A stretch of DNA of 64,000 nucleotides from an uncultured Verrucomicrobiota bacterium. Lineage in GTDB: Bacteria; Verrucomicrobiota; Kiritimatiellia; CAIVKH01. The number at the start of each line of letters is the position of its first letter. Within the stretch, counting starts at the first letter, position 1. Made by a program: the position numbers and the translations under genes. Of this stretch, positions 21,838 to 43,468 are shown piece after piece. A model generated the notes under the pieces. That model had not been told where the DNA came from. It ran no database searches and saw only the letters and a list, made by a program, of their open reading frames with translations. The stretch spans positions 62,001 to 126,000 of the forward strand of contig CALMUP010000019.1 in NCBI GenBank assembly GCA_937872895.1, read 5' to 3'.

Positions 21838-21853
21838 CCAGAAGGGGACCACC

Positions 21854-27248: not shown

Positions 27249-27457
27249 TTACGATACCGAGATGCCTAACCTGCAAGCACTACATCGGAGCGACGGGCCA
27301 AGAGTTCGTTTGCAAAGCCTTTCCAAACGGCATTCCCGACGCGATCATCGACGGCGAGTTCGATCACACGCAGCCCTATGAAGGCGACGGCGGCATACGG
27401 TTTGAGGAGAAGATCATGACGTTTGCCGATCCCGAAAAAACGAAAGAAGGCGCATGA
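27245..27457 (+). CDS. Small cysteine-containing protein, possible immunity or accessory partner of MuF
   Basis: 70 residues. CLTCKHYIG, VCKAFPNGIPDAIIDGEFDH and QPYEGDGGIRFEE form a compact motif seen in small free-standing bacterial proteins that often lie next to larger enzymes. The three Cys and one His could bind a metal. It overlaps the MuF stop by 4 bp, so it is translationally coupled to the HExxH-bearing gene; protection of the host or of the packaging cell is a plausible but untested role. Confidence 0.55.
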   Translation: MITIPRCLTCKHYIGATGQEFVCKAFPNGIPDAIIDGEFDHTQPYEGDGGIRFEEKIMTFADPEKTKEGA

Positions 27458-27485
27458 CCCGGATTGAGGGCAAGCTGGATCGGTC

Positions 27486-27998
27486 ATGAAAGTCGTCATC
27501 CTAAAAGACACGCTTACTCCGAAGCTGGAAGGCGTGATGGCTCAGCTGCAATACCCGCGTGCCTTGCTGCAGGCGATCGGCCTTCGTGCCGTGGCCTTCG
27601 CCCGCGATGCCTTCACGGATCCGTCGAAGCGGCCGACGCCGTGGGCGGCGAAGAAGGATGGCGAGCCAGCAACGCTGAGGTATCGAGGCGCTTTGCAGCA
27701 ATCGCTCCGCCTGGTGGCCGCCGATAACAACTCGGCAACGATTGGAAGTGATCGCCCGTATGCGGCGATTCACCAACTCGGAGGAAAGACCAAGCCGCAT
27801 ATCATCAAGGCGAAGGATGCGGCCGCGCTGTACTTTCGCGTGGGGGCGCAGAGCTACTATGCGAAGCAGGTGAAGCATCCCGGCAGTTTGATCCCGGCGC
27901 GGCCGTACTTCCCGCTGCATCCGGACGGCCGGTTGCAGCCCGAGTTCCAGGCCGAGGTCGAGAGCATGATCCACAAGCACGTAGGCCTCGGCCGATAG
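27486..27998 (+). CDS. Phage virion morphogenesis protein (Mu gpG-like)
   Basis: 170 residues. TPWAAKKDGEPATLRYRGAL, then SDRPYAAIHQLGG and IPARPYFPL, are hallmarks of the Phage_tail_S/virion morphogenesis family (Mu G), needed for head-tail joining or tail completion. It follows the MuF region as in Mu. Confidence 0.85.
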   Translation: MKVVILKDTLTPKLEGVMAQLQYPRALLQAIGLRAVAFARDAFTDPSKRPTPWAAKKDGEPATLRYRGALQQSLRLVAADNNSATIGSDRPYAAIHQLGGKTKPHIIKAKDAAALYFRVGAQSYYAKQVKHPGSLIPARPYFPLHPDGRLQPEFQAEVESMIHKHVGLGR

Positions 27999-28009
27999 CC
28001 CCGCCGTCG

Positions 28010-28038
28010 CGTCCCACTTGCCCCACCTGTTTTAGACG
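28010..28038 (+). promoter_or_regulatory. Late-arm box, right copy (candidate late promoter)
   Basis: CGTCCCAC, TTG, then CCCCACCTGTTTTAGACG: 24 of 29 positions equal the left copy at 14642-14670 in inverse orientation (8 of 8 and 16 of 18 in the two conserved blocks). Its end lies 34 bp before the ATG at 28072, nearly the same distance as on the left arm (33 bp). Confidence 0.6.
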
Positions 28039-28059
28039 GTTTCATACGCATGGTCTTTA

Positions 28060-29043
28060 ATGGCCAGCGTAATGAGTGACCTGACAAAGCTTGATCTGAT
28101 TTGCCTGCGCATCTCCAACGGCGCGTCCGCCGTGAAGGGGCTTCCGAAACGCCTGAAGGTTTTGAACTGGGGCGTTAACGAGACCAAGAAGGGCAAGGTC
28201 ATTGTTGGCGCAAAGACGGTGGCCGAGTTGCCGACGATGCAGGATCGCTTCGGTTTTGATCGCGTCGCCCTGGACTACGAGCACAACACCGTGCCTGGCA
28301 CCACGGAGTACGAACGGACGAAAGAACCGCGCGAAGTCGCGGCCTACGGCGTACCGCTGGTGATTCCGAACGATGGCCTTTACCTGGATGACCTGATCTA
28401 CACCCCGTCCGGCGAGAAAAATGCCCTGTCCTACATCGACCTGTCCGCGGCGGTCTCGAAGGATCCAAACGGCGAAGTCGTGTTCATGCATTCCAGCGCC
28501 CTCTGCCGCCAGGGCGCGACTCCGGATGTCTCGTACTACTCGATCGATCTCACCCCCAAGCAAAAGGAAACCACCATGGAACTGAAGGACATCATCGCCG
28601 GACTGACCGCGCTCAACACGACCGTTGACAGCCAGAAGGCGCAGCTCGGCCAGTTGCTCGCGCTCTCGCAGACCGTCACCACCCAGCAAACAACGATCAC
28701 CGCCCTCTCGGCCCGCCTTGACAAGTTCGAGCGCCAGGCGCTGGTGGACAAGGCCACCACCGCAGGCAAGGTGATCCCGCTTTCCGCCGAGGAACTGGCC
28801 AAGGTCGATCTCGTGACCTTGTCGGCGATGGTCGACAAGTTGCCGGTGACGGTTCCGCTCAGCCGCCGCACTCCGTCATCGAGCGTGGAGACGCCGATCG
28901 AGGGCAACGCCCAGGCGCTGAAGGATCGCGCCGCCAAGGTGGACGCCCGCGCCGCCGAGCTGCAGGCCAGCGGGGCCGCGACGAGCCTGATTCAGGCGTA
29001 CAACATGGCCGACCAGGAGATCCCGCCGGTCACCGTCAAGTAA
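28060..29043 (+). CDS. Head maturation protease with internal scaffold (Mu gpI/gpZ-like)
   Basis: 327 residues; ATG 28072 is an alternative start favoured by its distance to the late box. Residues 1-160 are the Mu I protease: FDRVALDYEHNTVPG with the conserved DYEH, then GLYLDDLIYTPSG and SYIDLSAAVSKD. After residue 172 the protein is a Gln/Ala-rich coiled coil, the scaffold. An AAAGGAAA site (28563-28570) precedes Met173 (ATG 28576), so a separate 155-residue scaffold is probably made from within the same frame, as for Mu Z. Confidence 0.85.
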   Translation: MASVMSDLTKLDLICLRISNGASAVKGLPKRLKVLNWGVNETKKGKVIVGAKTVAELPTMQDRFGFDRVALDYEHNTVPGTTEYERTKEPREVAAYGVPLVIPNDGLYLDDLIYTPSGEKNALSYIDLSAAVSKDPNGEVVFMHSSALCRQGATPDVSYYSIDLTPKQKETTMELKDIIAGLTALNTTVDSQKAQLGQLLALSQTVTTQQTTITALSARLDKFERQALVDKATTAGKVIPLSAEELAKVDLVTLSAMVDKLPVTVPLSRRTPSSSVETPIEGNAQALKDRAAKVDARAAELQASGAATSLIQAYNMADQEIPPVTVK

Positions 29044-29072
29044 CGATCACCCACAACCCGGAGTAGAGCATC

Positions 29073-29489
29073 ATGGACAACATCCAGACCAACACGCGCC
29101 CTGGCGCGATCAAGCTGAAAGCGGGCGAGAATCTCGTCGGCTACGAGGGTTTCCTCGTCAAGATCAAGAACGTCGGCGGCGAAGCCCGCTTCGTGCGGCC
29201 GGAGGCGGTCGCCGATGACGGCCTGTTTGTTCTCCAGGAGGGCGCGACCGAGGGCAGCTATGCTTCGGCCATCCCCCTGCACAGCGCCAGCAACTTCCGC
29301 GTCCGCCTCAAGGGCGCTTGCAATCCGGGTGCGCGCCTGTGCCTCGCCGGGGCGGGCGACTACGGCAAGATCCGGGCGCTGCCCGGCGATGCCGGCACGT
29401 ATTTCATCATGGCCGTCGCCGAAGAGATCGGCGTGGATGGACAGAACGTCCGGATCCGCCCGGCGATGATCGGCAACGTCACCGTTTAA
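29073..29489 (+). CDS. Putative capsid decoration (cement) protein
   Basis: 138 residues, beta-rich (AGENLVGYEGFLVKIKNVGG; GLFVLQEGATEGSYASAIPL). Length, composition and place between scaffold and major capsid genes fit DUF2190-type head decoration proteins. No motif decides it. Confidence 0.6.
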   Translation: MDNIQTNTRPGAIKLKAGENLVGYEGFLVKIKNVGGEARFVRPEAVADDGLFVLQEGATEGSYASAIPLHSASNFRVRLKGACNPGARLCLAGAGDYGKIRALPGDAGTYFIMAVAEEIGVDGQNVRIRPAMIGNVTV

Positions 29490-29511: not shown

Positions 29512-30444
29512 ATGTCGCGTCTCGCAGCCATCTCGTCGAATCCCACGCTGATCAATTTCGCTCAGCGTTCCGCCCAGCAGGCGGTACAGCCCGTGGCCAA
29601 CTTCATCGCCCCTCCGGTTGAAGTGGCCGTGCCCTCCGGCTTCTACAAGCGTTACACGGACAAGAGCCGGTTCCGCGTGCCCGACACCCGCCGTCCGCTG
29701 CATGGCAAGGCCGCGCAAATCGGGTCGAGCGCCGAGAACGTTCCGTACCTCCTGGAGCCGCATGCGCTCGACTATCCGGTCGACCAGGCGGAGAAGCTGG
29801 CCGAGAAGGATCTGCTCAACAGCATGATGGAAGGCGCGATCATCAATGCCGAAGTCGCTGCGCTTTCCCACGAGAAGGCCGTGGTGGATCAGGCCCTCGA
29901 TGCGGCAGGCGCTGGCGAGGAGAAGGCCTGGGGTGATGCTGAAGATCCGATCTCGGATCTCGACGACGCCATCCTGGAGGTCGTCAAAGCGGCCAAGTAC
30001 GGCAGCCTCATGGGCATCGGCGTCGTGTTCGGCGCCTACGCCTTCAAGTACTGCAAGAACCACCCGAAGGTGCGGGGCAAGTTTGTCGTCGGCAACCCGA
30101 AGGCGGGCAACACGCAGACGCCCACCCTCGAATCGTTCGGCCAGTTGCTGATCGGCAACCCGGATGTGCGGGCCTCCTTCATGGTGTATGACGATGCGGC
30201 TGAAGGCGTGTCGGAAGACATCCAGTTCATCCTGGACAACACCATCCTGGTGTTCGCCCGCAAGGAAACGCCGACCCGCAACGACCCCAGCTTCATGAAG
30301 ACCCTGCGTCTCATGGGCCAGTGGATGGTTCCGGGCAGCTACCAGAAGGAAGACGGCCGCGGCGAGGTCGCCAAGTTCGACTGGTACGAGCAGATCATCC
30401 GCGCCAACGACGCCGCCGTCCGCCGCATCAACATCAAACGGTAA
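29512..30444 (+). CDS. Major capsid protein
   Basis: 310 residues, directly after protease/scaffold and decoration genes. It starts MSRLAAISSNPTLINFAQRS and holds GFYKRYTDKSRFRVPDTRRP, YPVDQAEKLAEKDLLNSM and a C-terminal KFDWYEQIIRANDAAVRRIN, consistent with HK97-fold capsid proteins of transposable phages. A GGAG site precedes the ATG. Identification rests on order and general features rather than a diagnostic motif. Confidence 0.75.
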   Translation: MSRLAAISSNPTLINFAQRSAQQAVQPVANFIAPPVEVAVPSGFYKRYTDKSRFRVPDTRRPLHGKAAQIGSSAENVPYLLEPHALDYPVDQAEKLAEKDLLNSMMEGAIINAEVAALSHEKAVVDQALDAAGAGEEKAWGDAEDPISDLDDAILEVVKAAKYGSLMGIGVVFGAYAFKYCKNHPKVRGKFVVGNPKAGNTQTPTLESFGQLLIGNPDVRASFMVYDDAAEGVSEDIQFILDNTILVFARKETPTRNDPSFMKTLRLMGQWMVPGSYQKEDGRGEVAKFDWYEQIIRANDAAVRRINIKR

Positions 30445-30469: not shown

Positions 30470-30862
30470 GTGAAGAAGCTATTCATGTTCGGCATCATGG
30501 CGGCGGTCGCGCTCGCGGCCCTCGCCCCGGCGAAGGCGGAAACGCCTTATACCACCAAGCTCGATACGCGCACCACCAACGAGTACCGCGTGACCCGCGA
30601 CTACGCGTCGGAGAAGCCGCTGATCATCGAGGCCTATCAGGCCAGCGCGGCTACCGGTACGATCACGATCGCGCGGATCCGCGAAGACCGCACCAACACC
30701 ATGGGCTCCATCACGCTGTCCGGGTCGGCCGGGGTGTGGCGGCAGACCAATGCGATTCCGGTGTGGTTGTTCCGAGGTGACCGCCTGCGGTTCATCTACA
30801 GCGGTGGCGCGACGTCGTCGGTGAATGACATCACCGGAGATCTTTCCTCGCCGAACCAGTAA
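30470..30862 (+). CDS. Exported small protein in the head operon
   Basis: 130 residues from a GTG at 30470 with an AGGAG site. MKKLFMFGIMAAVALAALAP followed by AKAE is a classical Sec signal peptide with an AKA cleavage site. The mature part is a beta-rich domain of about 105 residues (TITIARIREDRTNTMGSITL; VWLFRGDRLRFIYSGG). It lies between the capsid and gp36-like genes, where a cytoplasmic assembly protein would be expected, so its export is unusual. No family recognised. Confidence 0.65.
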   Translation: MKKLFMFGIMAAVALAALAPAKAETPYTTKLDTRTTNEYRVTRDYASEKPLIIEAYQASAATGTITIARIREDRTNTMGSITLSGSAGVWRQTNAIPVWLFRGDRLRFIYSGGATSSVNDITGDLSSPNQ

Positions 30863-30904
30863 CGATATCGATACCCCAAACCCGAAATCCGGCTTGAGGC
30901 TGCC

Positions 30905-31330
30905 ATGGCTTACTTGGAGCGATCTGATTTAACGCCAGGGCGAATCAAGCCGGATTTCTTTGCGTCTGCCCTGGATGATAACAAGGACGGCCTGGAGGAC
31001 ACCGGCCTGTTCGATCAGATCAAGGGGCAAGCCTGCCTGGATGTCGATGCCTACCTGATCCGATTCAACCCGCCGATGGCGAATCCGCCCGCGCTGGTCA
31101 AGGCGGCGGCGATCGCCTTTGCCGGATTCGAGGTCTACCGCCGGGCCGGGTATGAGGAGAGTCCGCAGAATCCGTTCGCCAAGGACCGGGCCTATTACCG
31201 CGACCAGCTTGAGAAGATCGCTGCAGGCACGCTCAGCCTGGGCGTGGCCCACGAGCCGTCTGGCGGGCCGGTGGCGAGCATTACCGAGCCAGCCAAGACC
31301 CACAGCACATCGGGCGACCTGCTTTACTGA
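30905..31330 (+). CDS. Head-tail connector protein (Mu gp36-like, DUF1320)
   Basis: 141 residues. The layout MAYLERSDLTPGRIKPDFFA, ACLDVDAYLIRFNPP, then PALVKAAAIAFAGFEVYRRA and the NPFAKDRAYYRDQLEKIAAG tail matches gp36/DUF1320 proteins, which bridge head and tail. Confidence 0.7.
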   Translation: MAYLERSDLTPGRIKPDFFASALDDNKDGLEDTGLFDQIKGQACLDVDAYLIRFNPPMANPPALVKAAAIAFAGFEVYRRAGYEESPQNPFAKDRAYYRDQLEKIAAGTLSLGVAHEPSGGPVASITEPAKTHSTSGDLLY

Positions 31331-31337
31331 GGCATCT

Positions 31338-31751
31338 ATGTTGACCATTCAAGAACGTTGGGAGCGAGTGCGAGATCGCTTTCGTGAAATCACCGACTTC
31401 CGGCAGGTGGAGATCCTGCCCATCCAACGCCTGATCGACGACAGCTTCTGGACTGGCCTCACCGCGCTGAAGATCCCCGCAGCGTATGTGGTTCTCAAGA
31501 CCGACGAAGAAGACGGCAATGCCGTCGAGAACAAGTCCACCTGGGCCGTGCTGATCGTAGCTCCAACAAAACCGACGCGGCCGACCGAGGATGTGAACCA
31601 CCTGATCCAGGCGTGCCGTGAAAAGTTGAACCATCAATGGCCGGACACCTTTTTCCATCTGGAGCCCAAGAACCGGGCGACCTTCCTGCAGGCCATGCCA
31701 CAGGTGGCGACCGTGGAGCTGGAGATCAACACCACGGAGTATGAATCATGA
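31338..31751 (+). CDS. Tail completion protein (Mu gp37-like)
   Basis: 137 residues from the ATG at 31338. RLIDDSFWTGLTALKIPAAY and NKSTWAVLIVAPTKPTRP, then WPDTFFHLEPKN, resemble the gp37/DUF1834 type that follows gp36 in Mu-like phages. Overlaps the next gene by 4 bp. Confidence 0.6.
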   Translation: MLTIQERWERVRDRFREITDFRQVEILPIQRLIDDSFWTGLTALKIPAAYVVLKTDEEDGNAVENKSTWAVLIVAPTKPTRPTEDVNHLIQACREKLNHQWPDTFFHLEPKNRATFLQAMPQVATVELEINTTEYES

Positions 31752-32416
31752 CCATCCGGACGATCCCCATGCGTATCGACCAGATGCGCGGCATCCTGGT
31801 TGAATCCACCAACGCGCCGCTGAACCAGAAACTTCGCCTGGTACGGGGCGATGACATCCAGTTCAACATCGACGTCGTGACGGTCGATCCGACGACACAG
31901 GCCGCGACGACCTTCGGGTTTGATGACACGACGATGTTCCGCCTGGTGGCCAAGAAGGAAAAGGACTACGGCGGGGCGGAGGTGATCTTGGCCGAGCCGA
32001 CCTCCTTCAACGTCCCCGGTCATCGCGCGGACCTGAATGTTGCCCAGGGCAAGCTATCGGTGCGGTTCAAGCTCAACCGGAAAGCACTGGCCACGGCACT
32101 CGGCTCCAAGGAGCCATCGATCAAGGTCGTGATTGATATCGAGGCGATTACCTTGGCCGGTGAAGTGTCGACCCTGGTGCAACTCAACGAGACCGTCCTC
32201 AACGACGCCGCCAAGAACCCCGACCAGGACGACAACACTCCGGTCGAGTACGCCACCCTCGACCAGTTACGAGCGGAACTGCGCCAAGTGACCCACCCCG
32301 ACGGCGGATTCTACAAGATCGAGGACGGCATGCTGATGGTCTTCGACATCGTGCTGCAGGATTACGCACCCGTTGGCTTGAGTGACGGGGCCTTCGTCGT
32401 ACTGGAGATCCCGTAA
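31748..32416 (+). CDS. Phage structural protein, unknown
   Basis: 222 residues. An N-terminal beta domain (LRLVRGDDIQFNIDVVTVDP; FKLNRKALATALGSKEPSIK) is of the kind that describes inputs to baseplate or fibre genes. The C-terminal part (DQLRAELRQVTHPDGGFYKI) resembles the trimerising stalk segments of tail fibres. It starts the fibre section. Function unproven. Confidence 0.55.
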   Translation: MTIRTIPMRIDQMRGILVESTNAPLNQKLRLVRGDDIQFNIDVVTVDPTTQAATTFGFDDTTMFRLVAKKEKDYGGAEVILAEPTSFNVPGHRADLNVAQGKLSVRFKLNRKALATALGSKEPSIKVVIDIEAITLAGEVSTLVQLNETVLNDAAKNPDQDDNTPVEYATLDQLRAELRQVTHPDGGFYKIEDGMLMVFDIVLQDYAPVGLSDGAFVVLEIP

Positions 32417-32586
32417 TGCTGATCTCCCGCCCCATGATCCAGGCAGCACTCGCGTCGATTACCTCGCCGCGCAGCCAGATCTACAAGCTGCAGGATGGCA
32501 AGGTCTGGTTGATGGACAAGAAGACAGGCCAGTTCCAGCCGATCGTTTTGAAGAACCGCGTCATACACGTCATGGAGCCCTTATGA
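32416..32586 (+). CDS. Small phage protein between tail genes
   Basis: 56 residues: MLISRPMIQAALASITSPRS at the start, then QIYKLQDGKVWLMDKKTGQF. It shares one base with the previous stop (TAATG) and overlaps the next gene by 4 bp (ATGA). The IYKLQDGKVWLMD segment suggests a small beta hairpin. Function unknown. Confidence 0.5.
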   Translation: MLISRPMIQAALASITSPRSQIYKLQDGKVWLMDKKTGQFQPIVLKNRVIHVMEPL

Positions 32587-33953
32587 AAAAGATTTCCCTC
32601 TTGCTCGCCGTCCTTGGACTTACCGGCTGCCTCGCGCAGGCGCAAGTGGTTACCACGCTTTCTGCCAGCAATGTGACGGCCTGGTCGGCGCAGCTTTATG
32701 GTTCCTATGCCGGGTTGGTCACGGGCCGCACGTACAGCGGCAGCATCTTCTACGGCCTGACCAACGGGGGCACGAATGAGCTGGCCTGGAGCAAAGCCAG
32801 TTCCGGTTTTGTGATCGAACCTTCGGGCACTGGCGATGTCGCAGGTATCTTCAGTCGTACCGTCGTCGAATTGGTGCCTACCAACACGTACTACTTCCGG
32901 GCCAGAATCTTTGACTTTGATACCATGACGACGACCTGGGCAACCCAGTCCCTGACCTTTGTGACCGGCAATCCGGCTCCAACCGTGATGCCCGGCGTCG
33001 CCTTCGCGGCCGTCACCGTGGACACCAACGGGGTGCTGCATTCACCTCCGGACTTTTTCGAGAAGAACGGCATTCAACCCACGCAAGGCGTAGACCTGAT
33101 CAACGCCCGTCTTGGCAGCAACGAGCAGGCGATTACGACGATGCGTGTTGTCGTTACGTCCCGCGTTGTTGTGTTACAGGCTGGCTTTGATGATCTGGAT
33201 GACCCATCCATCCTGCTTCTTGATGCTTACGGAAACGAAAAGCTGTTCATCGGATACAACACGAACAGCATGAGCACCGATCCGCTCGTTGTGCGATGGA
33301 AGTATCCGGACTCACCCGACACCACGTTGACCCGTTCGATGTCCTCAGATGATTTGATTGTCAACAATCGCCGGATCCTGAACGAAATCAATTTTCAGCA
33401 ATTTTTCGGTTCCGGTCTGACTTCGACGGCCTTTGTCGTTGGCGGCGGCTATTCGTACCGGCTTTTTGGAACCAACCAGCCAGGGTTTTTCAGTCCGATT
33501 ATCGGAACGGCATTGCCGATATGGTGGTCCGGAAATCAAGGCTCAGGGACGGGAATGGATGCCGACCTGCTTGATGGCATTGATAGTACCAATTTGGTCC
33601 GTTGGTCAGGTGGCAATATTACCGCCCGCACGGTTAATGTCCAGGATCGCTTCACCATCAGAACAAATGGACCTGACGTGGTATTGAACTACAGCGGATT
33701 CGGCAATCTCGTGATCACCATGGGTTCCAGCACTGCGGCCGTATTCACCGGTTCAGCGGTGACCTTCCCAAGCGCATCGGTTGGCGCGCAATCAGTCGTA
33801 GCCACGAACAGCACCTCCTACTTCGGGCCTACCTATGGCAACGGCCTTGGATGGACCAACATCCCGCTGACCGGGCTTCGCCTGGCAAACAATTATACAG
33901 GAGGGGTGATGCGGTTGGTGACCACGGACGGCGTGACCTTTTTCCTGCAATGA
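32583..33953 (+). CDS. Exported tail-fibre-like protein
   Basis: 456 residues from the ATG at 32583. MKKISLLLAVLGLTGCLAQA is a Sec signal; LTGC also allows a lipoprotein reading. It contains an Ig-like region (about 30-130), DADLLDGIDSTNLVRWSGGN (a motif common in tail fibres), and a beta-helical C-terminus. Overlaps the next gene by 4 bp. The fibre motif and the operon argue for a virion part; the signal peptide argues for passage to the periplasm. Both are clear in the sequence. Confidence 0.65.
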   Translation: MKKISLLLAVLGLTGCLAQAQVVTTLSASNVTAWSAQLYGSYAGLVTGRTYSGSIFYGLTNGGTNELAWSKASSGFVIEPSGTGDVAGIFSRTVVELVPTNTYYFRARIFDFDTMTTTWATQSLTFVTGNPAPTVMPGVAFAAVTVDTNGVLHSPPDFFEKNGIQPTQGVDLINARLGSNEQAITTMRVVVTSRVVVLQAGFDDLDDPSILLLDAYGNEKLFIGYNTNSMSTDPLVVRWKYPDSPDTTLTRSMSSDDLIVNNRRILNEINFQQFFGSGLTSTAFVVGGGYSYRLFGTNQPGFFSPIIGTALPIWWSGNQGSGTGMDADLLDGIDSTNLVRWSGGNITARTVNVQDRFTIRTNGPDVVLNYSGFGNLVITMGSSTAAVFTGSAVTFPSASVGAQSVVATNSTSYFGPTYGNGLGWTNIPLTGLRLANNYTGGVMRLVTTDGVTFFLQ

Positions 33954-35461
33954 AATACGTCTACGTCATAGCAGCATTGCTGTTTTGTATCTCGCACGCC
34001 TGTCGTGCCGAGGTGTACGTGATGACGAACGAAGTGTCATCCGTCACCAACGCGCAATCGACGATAAGCTTCGACAAGCAGAAGTTGGCCAGGCTATCCG
34101 TGTTCAGCCGCCTGGGTTCATTCTCGTTGCCACTGAACCTCACCACCAATTATACGATCCGCTGGGAGTGGCGAGACACCCGCGATCTGGTGGCGTTCAC
34201 GAATTTTCCCGGCCGCATTCTGGATGGAAGCAACGGGTATGCTTCCGTGGAGGCTCGGCTGATCGCGATCGACGAAGGTGCACATTACGAGGCGGAGCTG
34301 TGGGCCTATCTCAACGGGCAGCGGGGTCATCGCCTTGCCTGGCATAGCGTCACCGTCACCAACTCCGGCGCAGGATCCCAGGACCTGAACATAAACGTGT
34401 CCGGAGCGCCTGTTGATATAGCAGACCTGACCGCCATTGGACAATCCACCGGCCTCGTTCCGGTCACTCGCGGCGACGGCACCACCGACCTATTGCCGTA
34501 TGGTGGTGGTGGAGGTGATGGTGGGTCTGGATCGTTTGATGTGTACAGCAACGGAGTGCTGATCGGCACGGCGACGGGAATCAACGTCAACGCCTCCATG
34601 TTCCACCATCTACAAAGCGGGGTGTTGGAGATCGGGTTCGTGTCTTCGTTGTTCCCCGGACGCATCGGTAGCAATCGAGTCTATTTCCTTTCAGAAGGCA
34701 CCAACAGTTGGCAGGTGCCGAGCGGCATCACAAACATCGGCGTCTGGACATGGGGCGGCGGCGGGGCTGGCTCAACGCTTGCGAACGGTGGATTTACCTA
34801 CGTCGAGGCCGGTGCAACCCCGCTTGAGTTTCTTGAGGTCATGGTGCCGCAGGGCGGTCTTGCCGTCACGGGATCAACGACGACGGCAGCATATACAGAT
34901 AACGCCATCGGTGGCGGTGGTCGTGGCGTTTCGCGTACAACGGTAGTCGGCGGTGGTGGAGGTGGAGCCGCATGGGTCATACGATCAACAAACGACATAC
35001 TTGCCATCGCTGGCGGTTCGGGTGGTGGTGCTAGTCCGGGGACGGGCGGCGGTGTGTCTGGTGGTGTAGGTACCGGCGCGGGAAGTTCGACACCGGGTGG
35101 TGGTGGAAACCAAACAGAGGGGGGATCAACCGCCGCAACGCCGAGCTTCGTCAATCACTCTGGCACCAACACCGTCGGGTCTTTTTTGTTGGGCGGCAAC
35201 GGTGCCGTCACCAATGGCTTCGCAGGTTCCGCGCATGGCGGTGGTGGCGGGTATTTTGGAGGCGGCGGCAGCTACACCGTGAACAATAACTCACCCGGAG
35301 GCGGCGGTGGATCGGGACACGTTGGCACGAACACGTACTTTGGCGTGACCTATCGCACCCTGATAACTGACATCCCGGAATACGTGTCGGGTCGCGGAGT
35401 CGGTGCCGCAGGAACGCACGGCAATCGGGCTGGATCGGGCCTCGTGGTGATCGGGTACTAA
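33950..35461 (+). CDS. Exported glycine-rich adhesin or tail-tip protein
   Basis: 503 residues. MKYVYVIAALLFCISHACRA is a signal peptide. An N-terminal beta domain is followed by WQVPSGITNIGVWTWGGGGA, the start of a glycine-rich domain (about 260-500) with many GGGGG runs, ending GNRAGSGLVVIGY. Such domains form polyglycine-II bundles in phage tail tips and bind receptors. Overlaps its upstream neighbour by 4 bp. Together with the previous gene it is the best candidate for host recognition. Confidence 0.65.
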   Translation: MKYVYVIAALLFCISHACRAEVYVMTNEVSSVTNAQSTISFDKQKLARLSVFSRLGSFSLPLNLTTNYTIRWEWRDTRDLVAFTNFPGRILDGSNGYASVEARLIAIDEGAHYEAELWAYLNGQRGHRLAWHSVTVTNSGAGSQDLNINVSGAPVDIADLTAIGQSTGLVPVTRGDGTTDLLPYGGGGGDGGSGSFDVYSNGVLIGTATGINVNASMFHHLQSGVLEIGFVSSLFPGRIGSNRVYFLSEGTNSWQVPSGITNIGVWTWGGGGAGSTLANGGFTYVEAGATPLEFLEVMVPQGGLAVTGSTTTAAYTDNAIGGGGRGVSRTTVVGGGGGGAAWVIRSTNDILAIAGGSGGGASPGTGGGVSGGVGTGAGSSTPGGGGNQTEGGSTAATPSFVNHSGTNTVGSFLLGGNGAVTNGFAGSAHGGGGGYFGGGGSYTVNNNSPGGGGGSGHVGTNTYFGVTYRTLITDIPEYVSGRGVGAAGTHGNRAGSGLVVIGY

Positions 35462-35463
35462 CT

Positions 35464-35925
35464 ATGAAGACCATTGCCACCATCATCCTGCTTTCCGCGA
35501 CTTCCGTGCTGGCGCAACGGGTCATCACGTATGACCCGCGATTCGACGCAGCACCGGAACGGACACGAGACATCCCGGTCATCGACATCACCAACACCAA
35601 CACTGTGGCGCAACCGGACTACGCGCCTTGGATGCGGCGATTCCCAACCCCTGCCATCATCGACACTCGCTACCAGATCGGCGTCACGATCACCGGCACC
35701 GTGCAACAGGCCCGTGCCGATCTACGCGCCATCATCCGCGAGCAGTTTCCGGCGCGGGACCGGATGACTGATCGGAACACACGGGACGAACTCCGGGAGT
35801 CACGCGAGAAATTGAAGGGCCAGGGTCGAGGCCAGGCACAACGCATCACCGACTTGGAAGCTGAGGTGACCCGTTTGGCGGAGATCGTGGAATACCTCTT
35901 CGAGCAATCAGAATCATTCAAGTAA
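35464..35925 (+). CDS. Exported coiled-coil protein
   Basis: 153 residues. MKTIATIILLSATSVLAQ is a signal peptide. The middle has a Pro-rich segment (QPDYAPWMRRFPTPAIID) and the C-terminus a coiled coil (ITDLEAEVTRLAEIVEYLFE). It may form a stalk or chaperone for the adhesin encoded 2 bp upstream. No family recognised. Confidence 0.6.
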   Translation: MKTIATIILLSATSVLAQRVITYDPRFDAAPERTRDIPVIDITNTNTVAQPDYAPWMRRFPTPAIIDTRYQIGVTITGTVQQARADLRAIIREQFPARDRMTDRNTRDELRESREKLKGQGRGQAQRITDLEAEVTRLAEIVEYLFEQSESFK

Positions 35926-35938
35926 AGGACGGTGGATT

Positions 35939-36622
35939 ATGGGTAAAAATTACGGTGCAGTTGACCATCTGAACATGACCGGATCCGGTCGCCCGCTGGG
36001 CACGAACTTTTATTGCGTGCGTTGCGTTCCTACCCGAGCCAAGGAGTCGGCCAACGAGACGAACCAAGTCGGAGAGTATGATCCGGACACCCACCACTCC
36101 TTTAACGAGGTGATTCGGTATGAGGCAGAATACGTAAGCAAGGTCCGAACCGAAATTTCAGCGATTGAGATCACCACCGGATCCGGTGACGCCATGGCCG
36201 TCGAGAGCGTTGTCCTGCAGCAGGAAAACAAGAAGTATGCCAGAATCCGGATGACGGCCCACGAACATCCGGAACAGAACTTCGGGGAGCATCTCGACAA
36301 CGAGCGAACGATTACGCTTCCCGCTTTTCTGGGCTTCGGAGCCAACGACCACCTCGGCGTGTTTGAAAGCGAACTGGATGTGCAGCGTTCCGAGTATAAC
36401 ATCACGGTCGGTCATGAGGATGACAGCAACAATGTCGGGGAACATCTGGTCGGCCGCAGCCAGGGAGAAATGCACCGGGTTACGGTTGAAGCGATCACCG
36501 ACGAGTTGCCCGACGAACCGACCGCTCCTTGGAAAACGGAAGATCGACAGACGCCACGCCTGAACAACGAGCAGTACCGCGCCTCCATCACGGCCAGCAA
36601 ACTGGTGGCCGGCCCCGTCTGA
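35939..36622 (+). CDS. Putative major tail (tube) protein
   Basis: 227 residues without a signal peptide. Beta-rich with alternating charged segments (VSKVRTEISAIEITTGSGDA; ESELDVQRSEYNITVGHEDD). It precedes a helical protein and the coiled-coil tape-measure candidate, the usual tube, chaperone, tape-measure order of long non-contractile tails. Identification is by order only. Confidence 0.45.
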   Translation: MGKNYGAVDHLNMTGSGRPLGTNFYCVRCVPTRAKESANETNQVGEYDPDTHHSFNEVIRYEAEYVSKVRTEISAIEITTGSGDAMAVESVVLQQENKKYARIRMTAHEHPEQNFGEHLDNERTITLPAFLGFGANDHLGVFESELDVQRSEYNITVGHEDDSNNVGEHLVGRSQGEMHRVTVEAITDELPDEPTAPWKTEDRQTPRLNNEQYRASITASKLVAGPV

Positions 36623-36634
36623 TCATAAGCGGCC

Positions 36635-37432
36635 ATGGACCAACTTCATCCATCCGTGGAGGCGCTGATCCGACGCGTCATCGATGCCGACAAGCCTTTT
36701 GACTGGTTTTTCGAATATCATCACGTCGCCGAACTCAATCGTCTGGCCCACGAACAGGACGCCCCGCCTGGTCGTCAGCTCGTAGATCTGCTGGACGCGC
36801 CGATCGTGGTTGGGAACACGTCGCTGAGGCGGCTGTCGTGGGCCGCCATCGAGTGGTACAACGACCTCGCTCGTATTTGGTGGGGAGACAACGCCTCCAT
36901 GCGCGACTTGGCACTGGCCTGGGCACACGCGTTCTCCCGCTCGGCTATAGTCATTCAGCAGGCGTCTTCAGGCGAAGCAAGGACGCGGCGTACGATTCGC
37001 TCCTGGGCGAATGGCCTATCGGCTCCCTGGGAGGCCATACAGGCCGCCATTGATGCACTGCTGCCCAGGCGCTCATACCCGCCTATTGAGGCGTCAGGGG
37101 TGACGCTACCAGCCAGTGCCCAGCATTCCGTCCTGGCGCATCTGGTTGGATCCACGGGCATGCCCGATACTTATTGGCTCTACGACGTGGCCTACGAGCA
37201 TGTTGTTGATGTGCTGCGGGATCTCGCGGAGTCTTCCTTTGAGGCACAAGCCCACCAGGCTGCCCTTCTTGGGGTCCGGCTGAGTGAGCCCGAGGATTCG
37301 TGGAGCTTTCAGGCGTTCATCCGGTTCCGCAATGCATCACGGGCATTTATGGATCGGCATGGAGTCGATACGTCGTCGAAGGCGCGTCAGAAAAGGAAGG
37401 CCGATCAAGCACAAGGCCCGGAGGTCGGATGA
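36635..37432 (+). CDS. Putative tail assembly protein
   Basis: 265 residues, helical, with many Trp and His residues (PFDWFFEYHHVAELNRLAHE; SWAAIEWYNDLARIWWGDNA). No motif recognised. Its place before the tape-measure candidate is where tail assembly chaperones lie. Confidence 0.4.
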   Translation: MDQLHPSVEALIRRVIDADKPFDWFFEYHHVAELNRLAHEQDAPPGRQLVDLLDAPIVVGNTSLRRLSWAAIEWYNDLARIWWGDNASMRDLALAWAHAFSRSAIVIQQASSGEARTRRTIRSWANGLSAPWEAIQAAIDALLPRRSYPPIEASGVTLPASAQHSVLAHLVGSTGMPDTYWLYDVAYEHVVDVLRDLAESSFEAQAHQAALLGVRLSEPEDSWSFQAFIRFRNASRAFMDRHGVDTSSKARQKRKADQAQGPEVG

Positions 37433-37440
37433 TGGCCCGG

Positions 37441-37722
37441 TCAGTGGACAGACTTGCGGGGAGTTGCGCCATACTTCGCGGACCATGCCTCTGGCGTAGC
37501 GGGGCGTTTGCCCGAGAAGTGGGCATCAACCAGACGAGCCCCGTGATCCATCGCCGCCAGGTGAACGACCACGGCAACCGGCCAGGGAAGAAAGATCCAA
37601 CATACCACCGCGCCGACAAAAAAGGCCGCAGCCCATTTCGGGGAAAAATACATCACCTGCGTCCACCCAGGGATGAGCACGCTGGCCAGGTAATCGTTTC
37701 GCGAGGGTTCCGTGCGATTCAT
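37441..37722 (-). CDS. Small membrane protein on the opposite strand (accessory gene)
   Basis: 93 residues. Two hydrophobic stretches (YLASVLIPGWTQVMYF; WAAAFFVGAVVCWIFLPWPV, running into AVVVHLAAM) and a basic tail. It fills a 304-bp gap in the rightward late operon but is read leftward, as for accessory genes expressed in the lysogen. No ribosome site is obvious. Function unknown. Confidence 0.5.
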   Translation of the reverse strand: MNRTEPSRNDYLASVLIPGWTQVMYFSPKWAAAFFVGAVVCWIFLPWPVAVVVHLAAMDHGARLVDAHFSGKRPATPEAWSAKYGATPRKSVH

Positions 37723-37736
37723 AAGGAAACCGTACC

Positions 37737-39461
37737 ATGAGCACCGGGGAGTATCGAGGTAAAATCATCATCGAGGCTGATGGCTCGGAAGTCCAGCAGG
37801 CGACCAAGCAGGTCAACAACATGGCGGCCGCATTTACCGGAGCCAACGCTGTATTTCTCGGCACCAGAGAGGTCATGCGCGGAAATTACCAGGGATTTTT
37901 AGAGCTGGCAGTTGGCGCTCGGGTGCTGTGGACGGCTCTCGGTGCCGTTAACATTTACCTGAAGATCGCTACCGTCGCGCTCTCCGCGCTCGGGCCAATT
38001 GTTGGTAAAGTGATTTCAACTTTCCGGGACTCGAAGCCGATCGAAAATTATTCGCAGCGGATAGAGCGACTAGGTCTTGCGATCAGTGACCTGGAAAAGC
38101 ACAAGCAATCCATTAAGAAAGTCGCCGATGACTTTGGACACATCAAAGAGGCCGCCGATGCTGCTCGCGAAGCGATTGAGAAGGTTGGGCGTGCTCAAGT
38201 TGCTTTGAACAGCGCCCAAGGAACATCGCGCCTGGCCGCTCTTGATCTTGAAGAGGCATCGATGCTGGCTGGCGCGACAACCGACACCCAGAGGGCAGAT
38301 ATTCGGAAAGAGTACGCGAATAGACGCGAGGCGATTCAGGTTGAGAATATCGAGTCCGATTACACGCTGAAAAAGAAACAGAGCGCGCAAGGGCTTGAGG
38401 GCATCCGGGGCGAATGGGCCGAGGAAGAACGACAACGCAGAATGTTGGAATCCAACGTCACCTCCGCGAAAGAATTGGTTGGCAGCACCGTTCAAAGCAT
38501 GATCGCCACCATCGTGTCTTCCGAAGACTTCTCCAAGGTGCCGATGAGTGAGCAGTGGCGTGCGAGAATGCGTCGCGAGAAAGAGATCACCGCAGAGTTC
38601 AACGCCGATCCGACCAAAGCTTCGATAAAATACCAAAGCCGTATCGGTGACGTTAAGTTCAAAGAGCTAGAACAGCAAATCGCAGATATCTCGATCCAGA
38701 AGGACAAATTATCGGAATACGATGCAGGCGCAGGAATGCGAGCCACCGATCGCTCGGGAAGATATGCCGCGGCAGCACTGACCGATTCTGCCCTCGATGA
38801 GCAGCGCAAGTCCGCCCTTCTGGCTGTCCGGGAGGGCCGGATGCGCGCCCTGCAAAACATCAACTCTACACCCGAGATCAACCCGACATCGCCACCACCG
38901 CTTGACAAGGACGCAGCCAAGGAGAAAGAGCGATTAATCGAAGTGAAGAAGGAGGAGGGTCGCTATCTATTCGATAAGGCCGACCCTGAGCGACAACTGG
39001 CTTACCTGGAGCGGGTGCTTCGGAACATGTCCGGAAAGGATCTGACGGCTGAACAGCGCGAAACCAGGCTGGAGATCATCAAGTTGCGCGATCGCGTTGT
39101 GGCCAAGCTGGATGAAACGAAAAAGGAGGATCAAAAGGCCGTACCCTCGCAGGTTGAAAACCGAGACCAGGGCTACTCCTATGGGAAGCTCGGGGAGATC
39201 GGAAAGTTCAGGACTCAGGAGCAAACCGGACGGTGGGATGCCGCGGTGCTGGAACGGAAGAGGTCTAGCTTTCGTACGTTCGGTGGAATGGATGACCAAA
39301 GCACCGGGCGAAGCGTCGATACGTCCGCCTTGTTTGCCGCATACTACGCAGGGGGCGTCAACAAGACCAGCGACGCCCAGCAGCTAATCGCTGACCGTGC
39401 ACGCGAGCAGGTGCAGTACCTCAAGATCATCGCTACGGCGATGAAGGGGAGTTCTGAATGA
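37737..39461 (+). CDS. Putative tail tape-measure protein
   Basis: 574 residues, mostly coiled coil. It starts with GKIIIEADGSEVQQATKQVN, the usual N-terminal pattern of tape-measure proteins, then a hydrophobic segment (IYLKIATVALSALGPIVGKV) and long charged helices. The length would give a tail of roughly 85 nm by the usual 1.5 angstrom per residue. No peptidase domain is seen. Confidence 0.65.
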   Translation: MSTGEYRGKIIIEADGSEVQQATKQVNNMAAAFTGANAVFLGTREVMRGNYQGFLELAVGARVLWTALGAVNIYLKIATVALSALGPIVGKVISTFRDSKPIENYSQRIERLGLAISDLEKHKQSIKKVADDFGHIKEAADAAREAIEKVGRAQVALNSAQGTSRLAALDLEEASMLAGATTDTQRADIRKEYANRREAIQVENIESDYTLKKKQSAQGLEGIRGEWAEEERQRRMLESNVTSAKELVGSTVQSMIATIVSSEDFSKVPMSEQWRARMRREKEITAEFNADPTKASIKYQSRIGDVKFKELEQQIADISIQKDKLSEYDAGAGMRATDRSGRYAAAALTDSALDEQRKSALLAVREGRMRALQNINSTPEINPTSPPPLDKDAAKEKERLIEVKKEEGRYLFDKADPERQLAYLERVLRNMSGKDLTAEQRETRLEIIKLRDRVVAKLDETKKEDQKAVPSQVENRDQGYSYGKLGEIGKFRTQEQTGRWDAAVLERKRSSFRTFGGMDDQSTGRSVDTSALFAAYYAGGVNKTSDAQQLIADRAREQVQYLKIIATAMKGSSE

Positions 39462-39934
39462 GCACCGACAATCATGGTGTAACGGCCGCAAAAATGGAGC
39501 CATGGATTCTCGTTGACCTGGACTGTACTGATCGGACCCAGCAGAAGGTCTACAAAACGGGCAAGCAAATCGATGCCTTCGATGATCAAGGCGAGGTTAT
39601 AAAGGACGATCAGGGCAATCCCATCAAGATTGATGAGGAAAAAATCCTGCTGCAGCGTTCTGAAATATGGACGCTGCTGCGCAAACGAAAAGTTGTTGGC
39701 GTGACCAAGTTCAAACCAGAAAACGGAGAGACGAAAAGAACCTTTGATCTGGTCACCGGGCCGGAGTCAAAAATGAGCTGGTCGTCGATCGGTCGTATCG
39801 GTGCCGAAAAGAAGTTCCTTTGTACCCGGGACAAGATCGCCCCCGTGAACATCGTGTTGGGTACAGGTGAACAACAGCAGACGTGGATCTATATCGGTCC
39901 ATGGAAGAACATCCCGGAGGGCAAGTTCAAGTGA
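39458..39934 (+). CDS. Phage tail-associated protein, unknown
   Basis: 158 residues, beta-rich and charged (TYKTGK-type segments: TQQKVYKTGKQIDAFDDQGE; SWSSIGRIGAEKKFLCTRDK). It overlaps the tape-measure gene by 4 bp, the place of distal tail proteins. No motif recognised. Confidence 0.5.
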   Translation: MSTDNHGVTAAKMEPWILVDLDCTDRTQQKVYKTGKQIDAFDDQGEVIKDDQGNPIKIDEEKILLQRSEIWTLLRKRKVVGVTKFKPENGETKRTFDLVTGPESKMSWSSIGRIGAEKKFLCTRDKIAPVNIVLGTGEQQQTWIYIGPWKNIPEGKFK

Positions 39935-39936
39935 TA

Positions 39937-40365
39937 TCACTTCCGGTATCGGTGTTCGAAAAATGCCTCGGCACTGCTGGTCGAGGTCGTAGAGGTGAGG
40001 TACCCCGCTTGCGTTCGAATCGTCGATCGGCGCTCTCCCGGCAGTGTTGCCTGATTTTGTTCTACCCGCCCAACCCGGCGGCCTTCTACCGTCAGCGTCC
40101 ATCCGGCGAGGTCACGCTCGGCCGTCATGGTTTTGCCGTCTACTGTGGTAAAGAGCCAGTCCCGACCACGCGGGGTTGCCCTGATGGTTCGACCTGCATG
40201 GCTGGTGAGTTGAAAACCGCCCACATTGGTTGTGACAATGGCATTCGGAACTACCAGGGCAAACAGGTTCGCGGGATACCCGCGAGCCTCTTGCGAGGGA
40301 TCCGCGAGCGCCTCGCGGGACTCGATACCCAGCACCAACAAATAGGTCGCAAGAAGCACTCTCAT
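39937..40365 (-). CDS. Exported protein on the opposite strand (accessory gene)
   Basis: 142 residues. MRVLLATYLLVLGIESREAL followed by ADPS is a signal peptide. The mature part is a small beta domain (TIRATPRGRDWLFTTVDGKT; RDLAGWTLTVEGRRVGRVEQ) with a Ser/Thr-rich tail. It occupies a 445-bp gap in the rightward operon, read leftward. It could be a lysogenic conversion factor acting at the cell surface; this is inference. Confidence 0.5.
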   Translation of the reverse strand: MRVLLATYLLVLGIESREALADPSQEARGYPANLFALVVPNAIVTTNVGGFQLTSHAGRTIRATPRGRDWLFTTVDGKTMTAERDLAGWTLTVEGRRVGRVEQNQATLPGERRSTIRTQAGYLTSTTSTSSAEAFFEHRYRK

Positions 40366-40379
40366 GGGGTCATTCTACC

Positions 40380-40922
40380 ATGAGCCACCACCTGTTCGAC
40401 GAAAAAGTGGCCGTCCCGATATTCCTGCGCCCTCTGGGTAAACTTGTCCGGGATATGGCGCGTTGCCTAAACCACATGTATGGCGCAAACGGCGTAGCCG
40501 TCTACCCCAACGAGCACGGCGGGCTCGAAATCGATGCATCCCCTGGGTCCGGGGCTTTGGGTTCGTCGACGGTCAATTATCCTGGCTGTTGGGCTCCAGG
40601 CGAGATTGATGACACTGCAGGAACGATCGTCATCGGTAGAGGTATCGTGGTCGATACCACGCGAACGTATAAAGTTGGGCCGCGGGCCGTAACGGTAGCG
40701 GGGGGAACAACCACCCAACCGACCTACATCTACCTCGAGATACCTCACGAGTCGGGATCGGCCTCGATTGCAAGTACCAGCATCGCCAACCTTCCGACGC
40801 CGACCCTGACGGTGTACCGGATACCGCTTCTCGAAGTAGCCAAGATCTCGGGCAGAATCGTGGTGGTGGATCGCTTATGCAAAGACACTGTATCAATACC
40901 TGGTTTGCTTGGCTCTTCCTGA
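40380..40922 (+). CDS. Phage tail protein, unknown
   Basis: 180 residues. The N-terminus HHLFDEKVAVPIFLRPLGKL is followed by beta segments (TTTQPTYIYLEIPHESGSAS) that look like a fibre or spike adaptor. The 3' end overlaps the next gene by 46 bp. No family recognised. Confidence 0.5.
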   Translation: MSHHLFDEKVAVPIFLRPLGKLVRDMARCLNHMYGANGVAVYPNEHGGLEIDASPGSGALGSSTVNYPGCWAPGEIDDTAGTIVIGRGIVVDTTRTYKVGPRAVTVAGGTTTQPTYIYLEIPHESGSASIASTSIANLPTPTLTVYRIPLLEVAKISGRIVVVDRLCKDTVSIPGLLGSS

Positions 40923-43468
40923 CCTCGGCGGCTACCGCCGACGAGATAAGCACATGGAACTGGATCGGCCGGGCCACGGTCGAACGGATCGAGGCGCTCA
41001 GCTCCGGATACATTACCAGCCAGGTCGTAGAGGCGACCTGCCCGAGCGGCGTAGTGGTGTGGACGACCAACGAGGTTGTCCAGTCGACCGGGGCGAATAT
41101 CTACCTTTCCAGTCTGCCGCGGCTGCTCATTCCGGATCTCGCTTCAACCAGCCTTGTGGTGGTCGGGCAGCAAACCAGTGTCTGGACCAACGTGGTCGGA
41201 TCCGGCACGGCGACGGTGACCAACGTGGTGACGGAGGTCTATGACCTGTACGACCTGGACTATGTAAAAAGCACCAACGTGGTGGTGTTCTCCGGAACCT
41301 CCAACTGCGCCATGCAGGTGGTGACAGGGCGCTACGTTACCCTGCCGTTGCCGGAGCCGGGGCGGCGAGGCCTCGAGCTGCCGGTGGTGCGGTGGCTGGC
41401 GGACGCGCTGACTTTGTTAATCCCACAATATGTCGACATGGAGGCGGTCGCGGCCGGCGTGATGGAGCAACCTTTACCTCCGGCTCCTGGCGACTGGAGT
41501 TGGGTCAATTACACAAACCTTTTCGGAGAGGCCTTTTACGGGTGGGAGCTGCTCAGAACAAACTATCCTGCGGCGTTCCCGTCTCTAACCCAATCGCAGG
41601 TGTGGGAAAGAACGGGTATCGGAACCAGCGTCGTGTCGGTAACGGTGCTCGATCGCGGCACGAATTTCCCGAGGACGGTCACCAACTGGGTAAATGGTTG
41701 GGAGGTCGGGGCGCTACAACAACAGTTCGTCGCGGTCGTTTCGAACGTGCCGCGGTACACGGTGACGACGAACCGGCATTATCACTGGACGGGCTACGCG
41801 ACGACGGGAGCGGTGGTGACCTTGCGCCGGTTGCAGTCTATAGAAGACACGATCTACAACACCCCTTCTGTCTCCAACCGCCATATCACCGCGTTCGGGT
41901 TCGTGCCTGATGAACTTAATGGGCGCTGGGATTGGATGACCAATGGGTGGACGCGCGGCGACTACCTCATTGTGCCCGACACCAATGGGTATGACGCATC
42001 GTTCAATGGGCCTTGGGAGTATTTCGGCGATGACCCCTTTTTCCTCGACCTATTGTTCGATCAATGGTTCATCCGTCGTGGCGAAAGTAACCTGTTTAGT
42101 ATAGCCGACCATCAGGGATACCCGCGCGGATGTGTTGCGTCGTTGCAAGACGGCATGACTGGTGGAGTATTCGTCGCTTCGTCTTCGTGGATGTTAGATT
42201 CGACTTACGATTCGCTGGCCGTGTTGGGGGGCGGAAGCGGATGGATGCCTAGTATAGAGCCTGACCGTTACCAAACCTTCGTTGTGCTCGCGGGCAGTAG
42301 CAACCTGACGCAGGTGTGCGGTACGGTGACCAACAACCTGCGGCCGGCTGGCGTCTCGATCGATGTGACCATCGTTGGCAGAACTTCCAGCAACGATTCG
42401 TTTGGCAGAACGGTATTGGGCACGATTACCAACCAGGTCAGCTTGACCGCATTCGGTGAGATTGAGTTACCCGAACCTTTGTGGATGATCACAGCGCTTA
42501 CCGCACAAGTGGCGCAAGTGTCGGTGGGGGACATGGAGGTCCGGGTAGAGTCTCGAATAAACGACCGCCTTTATGGTCGCCCAGGCCGGTTGTATTCAGC
42601 AACGCTGATGTCGGAGATGACGGCGGTGCTCGATCAGCTAACCCACACGCAGCAGGAATCGGCGTTTTGGGAGGTGCGGCAGCCGGCGGAACCAGGAAGC
42701 TACGTCGACAACATCGAATCGTATTTGGCTTACAGCGATCCGGTCTGGCCTGCTTATGGTCCAGTCGTGGCCGATGAGCGTTATGGGTTGAGTGTAGAAT
42801 CTTGGATCTTTTACAACTCTGGCGACGTATCCCTGACGGGAGGCCGAACGGTTAATGGTGAGCGAACCGAGGATCTTCCATCTGAGTTCGCATCATATAC
42901 ACGATGGACGGAGATGCGGCCTGAGTCTGGAATTGCCGGTGGCCGATTTACGACGAACCTGAGCATGAAAGCAAGCCTGCACGTCCAGATTCATGACCGG
43001 GCTGGCTTTCAGGTAACGCATAGGCGCGGGTTCGCCTCGTCCACGTATTGGACCGGGGCAAGGTTCAATGGTATATTCTCACCTTACTTCTGTACTCCAG
43101 ATGTAGAGATTTTCTATGGTGAATCTTTCTTCGATCGGGTTTGGGAAGTCGGTGGAGCATTTCATCAGGGCTATCGGCACAGGCTTGGATTTTATTCTGA
43201 GGTCACAAAACCCCTAGGCGTTTCGGCGGTCGCGGGTCCGCTGGTTGATACAACAAGCTTTGTCCTCTCCACGGGATATGGTGTGGAGACAATCACGACC
43301 TCCGGCGGTTTTTCGTGGTCAGGGTCGGCGGTGTGTGACCTCGGCAACGCGAGCTGGGATCAGCGCGGTAGCCAAAAGTATTCTTTCGGGTTTAGCCGGT
43401 ACCCGATCTCCGGCGACCTGACGGCCCGGTGGTTGGTGGCGTGGGATTTTACCCCGCCGCCGCATTAA
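40877..43468 (+). CDS. Large exported protein at the right end of the prophage
   Basis: 863 residues from the ATG at 40877, which lies inside the upstream gene but gives a signal peptide (INTWFAWLFLTSAATADE). The mature protein is beta-rich, full of Thr/Asn/Val and Trp/Tyr (NVVTEVYDLYDLDYVKSTNV; RHYHWTGYATTGAVVTLRRL), like the exported proteins of Verrucomicrobiota. No domain recognised. As the last gene of the late arm it could be a receptor-binding or surface protein; its size and export make it notable. It ends 2 bp before the inner right-end site. Confidence 0.65.
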   Translation: MQRHCINTWFAWLFLTSAATADEISTWNWIGRATVERIEALSSGYITSQVVEATCPSGVVVWTTNEVVQSTGANIYLSSLPRLLIPDLASTSLVVVGQQTSVWTNVVGSGTATVTNVVTEVYDLYDLDYVKSTNVVVFSGTSNCAMQVVTGRYVTLPLPEPGRRGLELPVVRWLADALTLLIPQYVDMEAVAAGVMEQPLPPAPGDWSWVNYTNLFGEAFYGWELLRTNYPAAFPSLTQSQVWERTGIGTSVVSVTVLDRGTNFPRTVTNWVNGWEVGALQQQFVAVVSNVPRYTVTTNRHYHWTGYATTGAVVTLRRLQSIEDTIYNTPSVSNRHITAFGFVPDELNGRWDWMTNGWTRGDYLIVPDTNGYDASFNGPWEYFGDDPFFLDLLFDQWFIRRGESNLFSIADHQGYPRGCVASLQDGMTGGVFVASSSWMLDSTYDSLAVLGGGSGWMPSIEPDRYQTFVVLAGSSNLTQVCGTVTNNLRPAGVSIDVTIVGRTSSNDSFGRTVLGTITNQVSLTAFGEIELPEPLWMITALTAQVAQVSVGDMEVRVESRINDRLYGRPGRLYSATLMSEMTAVLDQLTHTQQESAFWEVRQPAEPGSYVDNIESYLAYSDPVWPAYGPVVADERYGLSVESWIFYNSGDVSLTGGRTVNGERTEDLPSEFASYTRWTEMRPESGIAGGRFTTNLSMKASLHVQIHDRAGFQVTHRRGFASSTYWTGARFNGIFSPYFCTPDVEIFYGESFFDRVWEVGGAFHQGYRHRLGFYSEVTKPLGVSAVAGPLVDTTSFVLSTGYGVETITTSGGFSWSGSAVCDLGNASWDQRGSQKYSFGFSRYPISGDLTARWLVAWDFTPPPH

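Follow-up and report, generated by a model that had tools for sequence, protein, structure and literature searches.

Fibre-like and capsid-neighbour proteins with predicted Sec signal peptides in a Mu-like prophage of Verrucomicrobiota and in its relatives

Introduction

Textbook accounts place the assembly of tailed phages in the cytoplasm and have it completed before lysis. A Mu-like prophage in the DNA of an uncultured Verrucomicrobiota bacterium (Kiritimatiellia; assembly GCA_937872895.1, contig CALMUP010000019.1, positions 62,001 to 126,000, a stretch of 64,000 nucleotides referred to here as the window) raises the question of where its fibres join the particle, as several genes downstream of its capsid gene, two of them fibre-like, begin with what look like signal peptides of the Sec pathway. 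An earlier note on this DNA offered two explanations: fibres are added outside the cytoplasm, or the arm carries a surface system expressed by the lysogen.

Comparison of the locus with its relatives leads us to propose, with about an even chance of being right, that Sec carries the fibres and a jelly-roll protein encoded next to the capsid gene out of the cytoplasm, and that these are added to virions outside it, probably at lysis. The broader proposal that tailed phages of Verrucomicrobiota build two-compartment virions joined at lysis, export being an old, lineage-wide trait that was coordinately lost in one genome (G079), is made tentatively and with somewhat less than even confidence.

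Signal peptides on phage-encoded proteins have precedents. The filamentous phage proteins pIII and pVIII are virion proteins with Sec signals, and that virion is completed outside the cytoplasm; filamentous phages are, however, unrelated and extruded without lysis, whereas the window encodes a tailed phage whose double-stranded DNA is packaged into a head. The moron products Rz1, Cor, Llp and Lom also carry phage-encoded signal peptides but, unlike the proteins considered here, are not virion fibres and have no docking or collar domains. Our searches of the open-access literature turned up no tailed phage described as exporting its fibres by Sec.

Results and Discussion

Signal peptides in the late arm

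Signal sequences were scored throughout with a home-made heuristic for n-, h- and c-regions, not with SignalP. The genes named in the earlier note are all present where it placed them (each is called below by its first coordinate), and those credited with a signal peptide or lipobox are as follows.

30470..30862, plus strand: capsid-neighbour protein, predicted jelly roll, Sec signal peptide MKKLFMFGIMAAVALAALAPAKA (signal score 4.9)
32583..33953, plus strand: fibre-like protein with a DADLLDGID motif and a lipoprotein-type signal (lipobox LTGC; score 6.3)
33950..35461, plus strand: fibre-like protein with a glycine-rich tip and a Sec signal (score 4.6; phrog_1589, 2.2e-5)
35464..35925, plus strand: small protein with a Sec signal (score 4.4), C-terminus coiled by eye
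39937..40365, minus strand: signal-like N-terminus (score 4.4), probably a separate moron
40877..43468, plus strand: terminal gene, product of 863 amino acids, borderline signal peptide MQRHCINTWFAWLFLTSAATA by eye, not called by the heuristic
13252..14244, minus strand: lipoprotein of the left arm (lipobox LAAC; score 6.1)

The n-, h- and c-regions or the lipobox of a Sec substrate are present in 30470, 32583, 33950, 35464 and 39937. The N-terminus of 40877, which the earlier note had counted among the clear signal peptides, has a weak hydrophobic core and was not called, so that its signal peptide is plausible only. The predicted lipoprotein encoded at 13252 sits in the other arm, gave no family match in library scans and looks unrelated. 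The view that 32583 and 33950 look like fibres gained support. Eight other late-strand genes (30905, 31338, 31748, 35939, 36635, 37737, 39458 and 40380) score none.

Wrong start codons or chance hydrophobic stretches might produce such N-termini artefactually, the predictor being a heuristic that leaves 40877 uncalled. The capsid protein family counts against this predictor, with 15/154 false calls, because an internal helix is read from internal starts. The other control families in the related loci are near zero at the same threshold (score at least 4.5): decoration 2/158, protease 0/166, tail tube 0/36, gp36 0/7 and CL7 0/61. In the structural arms of Mu and of the Mu-like siphophages B3 and D3112 (Pseudomonas) and RcapMu (Rhodobacter), one of 59 frames is signal-like, by which these phages differ from the window. 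Downstream of the capsid gene in the related loci, 161 of 1065 N-termini score at least 4.5, against 14 expected from shuffled N-termini. Furthermore, 30470 has a GTG start with AGGAG upstream, a ribosome-binding site also precedes 32583, and 26 of 26 aligned N-termini of the 30470 family line up as signal peptides (the aligned sequences being full-length members chosen for bearing a signal). We therefore consider an artefact very improbable. The upstream/downstream comparison of signal counts (104/815 vs 56/916) is weak, as it includes duplicates and mechanical reading frames; counts by family are better.

Signal-bearing families in related loci

Comparisons were anchored on the major capsid protein of the window, which has no signal peptide. 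A search with a capsid alignment gave 78 named loci, where a single-sequence contig scan had given none, and IMG/VR contributed 80 more. Capsid relatives occur in 30 of 337 genomes of the phylum; none was found among 50,697 phage records. Where the title of a record names a group, it is mostly Verrucomicrobia, Kiritimatiellae, Lentisphaerae or another group of the Planctomycetes-Verrucomicrobia-Chlamydiae (PVC) assemblage, the exceptions being bins titled Armatimonadota, Betaproteobacteria and Eubacteriales.

Proteins were grouped into families by iterated profiles, and distinct members were counted. The 30470 family is signal-bearing in 36/40 members (with a length filter, 35/40 at a threshold of 3.6 and 34/40 at 4.5), a second capsid-neighbour family in 11/12, the Fib family in 11/11, fibres with the docking domain described below in 6/6 and the DGQ family in 8/11. 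These five families, which adjoin capsid or tail genes, are thus mostly signal-bearing, unlike the decoration, protease, tube and adaptor proteins.

Signals also persist where sequences have drifted. A close relative on an IMG/VR contig (L034), with the same gene order and a capsid protein 80% identical to that of the window, keeps signal-like N-termini on its homologues of 30470, 33950, 35464 and 39937, at 29-50% identity in the first 28 columns; overall identity is 26% for the 35464 homologue and 21% for that of 39937, which holds the equal place and strand. The homologue of 32583 has an N-terminus that is signal-like by eye, weaker and not called in a strict scan; it lacks the lipobox cysteine, so that the lipoprotein status of 32583 is not conserved in L034. 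For 40877, no homologue was found in the L034 record or in other related loci.

Retained hydrophobic N-termini could instead stay uncleaved as membrane or virion anchors, holding assembly at the inner membrane or inserting into the target membrane on infection, and some capsid-neighbour N-termini are indeed long or prepilin-like (L208, L210, L224). In most, however, a short n-region is followed by a core and by a site that is AxA-like or a lipobox, and these features stay while the sequences diverge; we regard anchoring as improbable.

The prepilin-like N-termini (L208:10942, L210:11038 and L224:11039; for example FSLIELIIAIAMIAVIS) look, by their motif, like prepilin signals turned Sec signals. 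Separately, the signal peptides of L153:11480, L159:11440 and L203:14955 (LSSFIVHLSSFAVL, ISHWSLVIGLL) resemble translated intergenic repeats of a kind common in these genomes, hinting that signals may originate from repeats.

Homologues without signals, named in the earlier note as a counter-check, were found in two places, and signals are kept elsewhere. The first comprises four Mu-type prophages with related capsid and gene order (L055-L058; the label Akkermansia-like is our guess), in which a fibre of 687-868 amino acids lies between tube and tape measure and has no signal (0/4); L063, of the same family (f41), has a signalled protein of 797 amino acids in that slot. The second is genome G079, where two adjacent proteins are affected: the 30470-type proteins lack a signal in 4/4 copies and the recognised DGQ-type neighbours in 3/3. 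All four 30470-type copies start at a ribosome-binding site, three of the four leave no upstream room for a signal, and in the tree the four group together as a single clade (support 100/92), which requires one change. As this clade lies inside a signalled one, signal loss is the simpler account, and we rejected the idea of a signal freshly grafted onto an unsignalled ancestor. Loss in two neighbouring genes suggests that both products act in one compartment.

Some relatives are compact elements, here called type B, that encode a DNA polymerase, primase, terminase, portal, protease, decoration protein, capsid protein, adaptor and integrase, along with three small proteins, most of which bear a signal. 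The window's own genome holds one on a second contig (G000:C35:61000-100999; L003, L004), with a capsid protein 54% identical to that of the window. Others are L230 and L041 in G079, a single-contig genome with four type-B copies, and L087/L035 (G225, Pontiellaceae bacterium B12227), the L087 record bearing no metagenome-bin mark. They resemble capsid-encoding satellites (PMC10690885) or very small tail-poor phages.

Virion domains behind the signals

The domains attached to the signals were tallied against Pfam and PHROG for 114 of 146 listed signal-bearing proteins (duplicates, frames above 1000 amino acids and several far-downstream genes were omitted, and one L068 protein was added). Most of the 114 have no virion-type match. 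Single members match Phage Tail Collar (2.3e-19), Fibritin_C, T4_gp9_10_N, collagen or GDSL lipase, others BNR repeats or Laminin_G_3, and PHROG matches include tail fibre families (best 2.6e-40). One signal-bearing protein (L186) includes the esterase region found in fibres of Klebsiella and Escherichia phages.

In six relatives (L110, L120, L068, L065, L064 and L203), predicted-exported fibres have a common domain that follows the signal directly. An AlphaFold2 model of this domain matches the docking domain of the TP901-1 baseplate protein BppU (Foldseek E 2e-8 for 4v96 and 8e-7 for 3uh8), and VIA gives Z 13.1 for 4v96 (2.7 A over 121 residues) and Z 12.7 for 3uh8 (2.3 A over 113 residues), the first non-phage rows of the list appearing near Z 7. 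By this model, the six signal-bearing fibres carry an N-terminal BppU-type docking fold, placed before a fibre region; the predicted fold is that of the docking domain in BppU and in the upper baseplate protein of 80alpha. The relatives differ from BppU in the Sec signal directly before the domain; we know of no such signal in BppU.

The AlphaFold2 model of 30470 is a jelly roll (predicted local distance difference test, pLDDT, 80) whose closest match is the nucleoplasmin fold (Z 11); the phage lambda tail tip (8.3) and the Klebsiella phage KP1 baseplate (7.9) score lower. It fits a virion surface protein, short of proof.

Two further features of fibres in the relatives were seen by eye. The C-terminal part of the related fibres L110:14607-16571, L120:9111-11153 and L053 7169 (L051/L066 being the same genes as L110/L120) is like a trypsin-type serine protease, as we read their GDSGSP motif. 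A signal-bearing protein in the fibre slot (L120:7708-9111) carries an FGE-sulfatase match (2.9e-37), a C-type-lectin fold that is often diversified by retroelements.

Display on the cell or assembly at lysis

The other explanation in the earlier note, a surface system of the lysogen, here taken to include display in the periplasm and by the infected cell, would make the signal-bearing genes morons within the late arm, whose products might coat the cell, block receptors, capture virions by decoy docking (superinfection exclusion) or serve as adhesins. Surface-display morons are usually marked by a signal peptide or a lipobox, and some neighbouring proteins with signals show matches to enzymes or to lectin-like domains (Laminin_G_3, GH43, S11 peptidase, caspase-like). 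Gene placement divides the candidates: 39937 has the opposite-strand position of a typical moron, whereas the late-strand signal genes are closely packed between adaptor or tube and tape measure, their frames overlapping or nearly touching (33950 starts within the stop of 32583). In addition, fibre, collar and docking domains occur in the signal-bearing proteins of relatives, and the late genes of Mu-like phages are not expressed in a lysogen. In L051, where the late region was read through the tape-measure gene and one gene beyond it, we saw no fibre lacking a signal that could serve the virion instead. Display is thus favoured for 39937, and we think it unlikely as an account of the arm; for the late-strand genes, the docking fold and the collar, fibritin and gp9-10 domains in relatives, the shared slot and the tight spacing favour addition outside the cytoplasm.

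Such addition would proceed as follows. Heads (capsid, decoration, portal, protease) and tail tubes would be made in the cytoplasm without signals, while the 30470-type protein and the fibres, because they carry Sec signals, would be threaded through the inner membrane. The signal would then be removed, and folding would take place in the periplasm or, for lipoproteins, at the outer membrane. Docking on particles would follow when the inner membrane is opened by lysis, and baseplate-docking N-terminal domains may mediate it in at least some relatives. The window's own fibres would presumably behave alike.

Several points weigh against assembly at lysis. Virion membership of the signal-bearing proteins is predicted from gene sequences, and their signals by the heuristic. 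The docking domain was found in six relatives, all outside the window, in a model with a middling pLDDT of 67, and the window's own fibres have no detectable domain in common with these relatives; profile comparison of the domain with the N-terminus of the Akkermansia-type fibre and with the 31748 protein of the window gave probabilities <4%, and iterated profiles of the window's fibre genes matched L034 only. The candidate origin of the 30470 family as a duplicate of the decoration protein was rejected (weak profile matches at E 0.001-0.005; profile-profile probability 0.6%). On the G079 branch, the proteins persist without export, and among the scanned proteins of type-B elements there is no match to tail tube, tape measure or any other tail PHROG, so that their signal-bearing proteins have no recognisable tail as a docking site.

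If the proposal is true, a whole lineage would assemble its receptor-binding parts, carrying Sec, lipoprotein or prepilin-like signals, on the envelope side, where disulfide formation, glycosylation or lipid anchoring would be available, and fibre, host surface and superinfection would be linked in a new way. Annotation practice, in which absence of a signal peptide serves as evidence for the phage origin of a protein, would be affected; PMC6199706 argues in this way from phage hypervariable proteins that lack the signal peptides of surface-displayed bacterial ones.

Organisation of the prophage

The prophage extends over about 7.3-43.5 kb of the window, because portal, terminase and methyltransferase genes sit at 7358-11370 on the minus strand; G+C is lower across the same interval, and searches of the flanks gave no clean empty site. 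Its remaining features are listed below.

7358..11370, minus strand: left arm with DNA methyltransferase, portal and large terminase (phrog_56 1.1e-78, phrog_113 1e-53, phrog_2 4.1e-16, phrog_38 0.0012)
18905..22477, plus strand: Mu-like transposase A, B protein and DUF3164 (phrog_310 1.3e-13, phrog_296 2e-20, PF11363 2.8e-45)
25752..29489, plus strand: MuF, neck, protease and decoration genes (PF04233 1.2e-19, PF05069 1.2e-11, PF10123 1e-10; decoration by position and family)
29512..30444, plus strand: major capsid protein (phrog_1005 7.5e-26)
30905..31330, plus strand: Mu gp36-like head-tail adaptor, without signal (PF07030 3.5e-11)
31748..32416, plus strand: protein with an LVRGDD motif directly before the fibres, without signal, 49% identical to its L034 counterpart
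37737..39461, plus strand: probable tape measure, without signal (by position, length and a homologue in L034)

A MuA-type transposase and a MuB ATPase, the pair by which Mu-like phages are recognised, are encoded at 18905-21837 (the Mu-transpos_C match is below its cut-off), and the Mu-type head genes (MuF, G, I protease, capsid, gp36) are present. B3, D3112 and RcapMu have transposase A/B, MuF, neck, protease, capsid and gp36-type adaptor in the window's order, but in the window terminase and portal form a separate left arm at 8259-11370 (minus strand) rather than directly preceding MuF, and L034 likewise has neither between B and F. Given their place on the opposite strand, the prophage resembles Mu in its transposition and head genes but departs from it in overall gene order. 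The 31748 protein, a possible cytoplasmic platform protein, has no family match in Pfam/PHROG-type scans, and family scans of the probable tape measure gave no match above chance.

A few minor features of the prophage were also observed. The large terminase (9785-11370, minus strand) consists of two adjoining frames with a 4-base overlap, the N-terminal part matching phrog_2 and the C-terminal part phrog_38, and is either a split gene or a frameshift. The left arm also encodes, beside the lipoprotein 13252, a protein (12464-13411, minus strand) that looks patatin-like from a GTSAG motif recognised by eye, possibly a lysis gene. A small membrane protein directly before the tape measure (37441-37722, minus strand) is a second moron-like gene. 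Finally, the MuF protein (25752-27248) has a C-terminal extension with HHFLHESAHPLHWF that looks, by eye, like a metallopeptidase or toxin-type tail.

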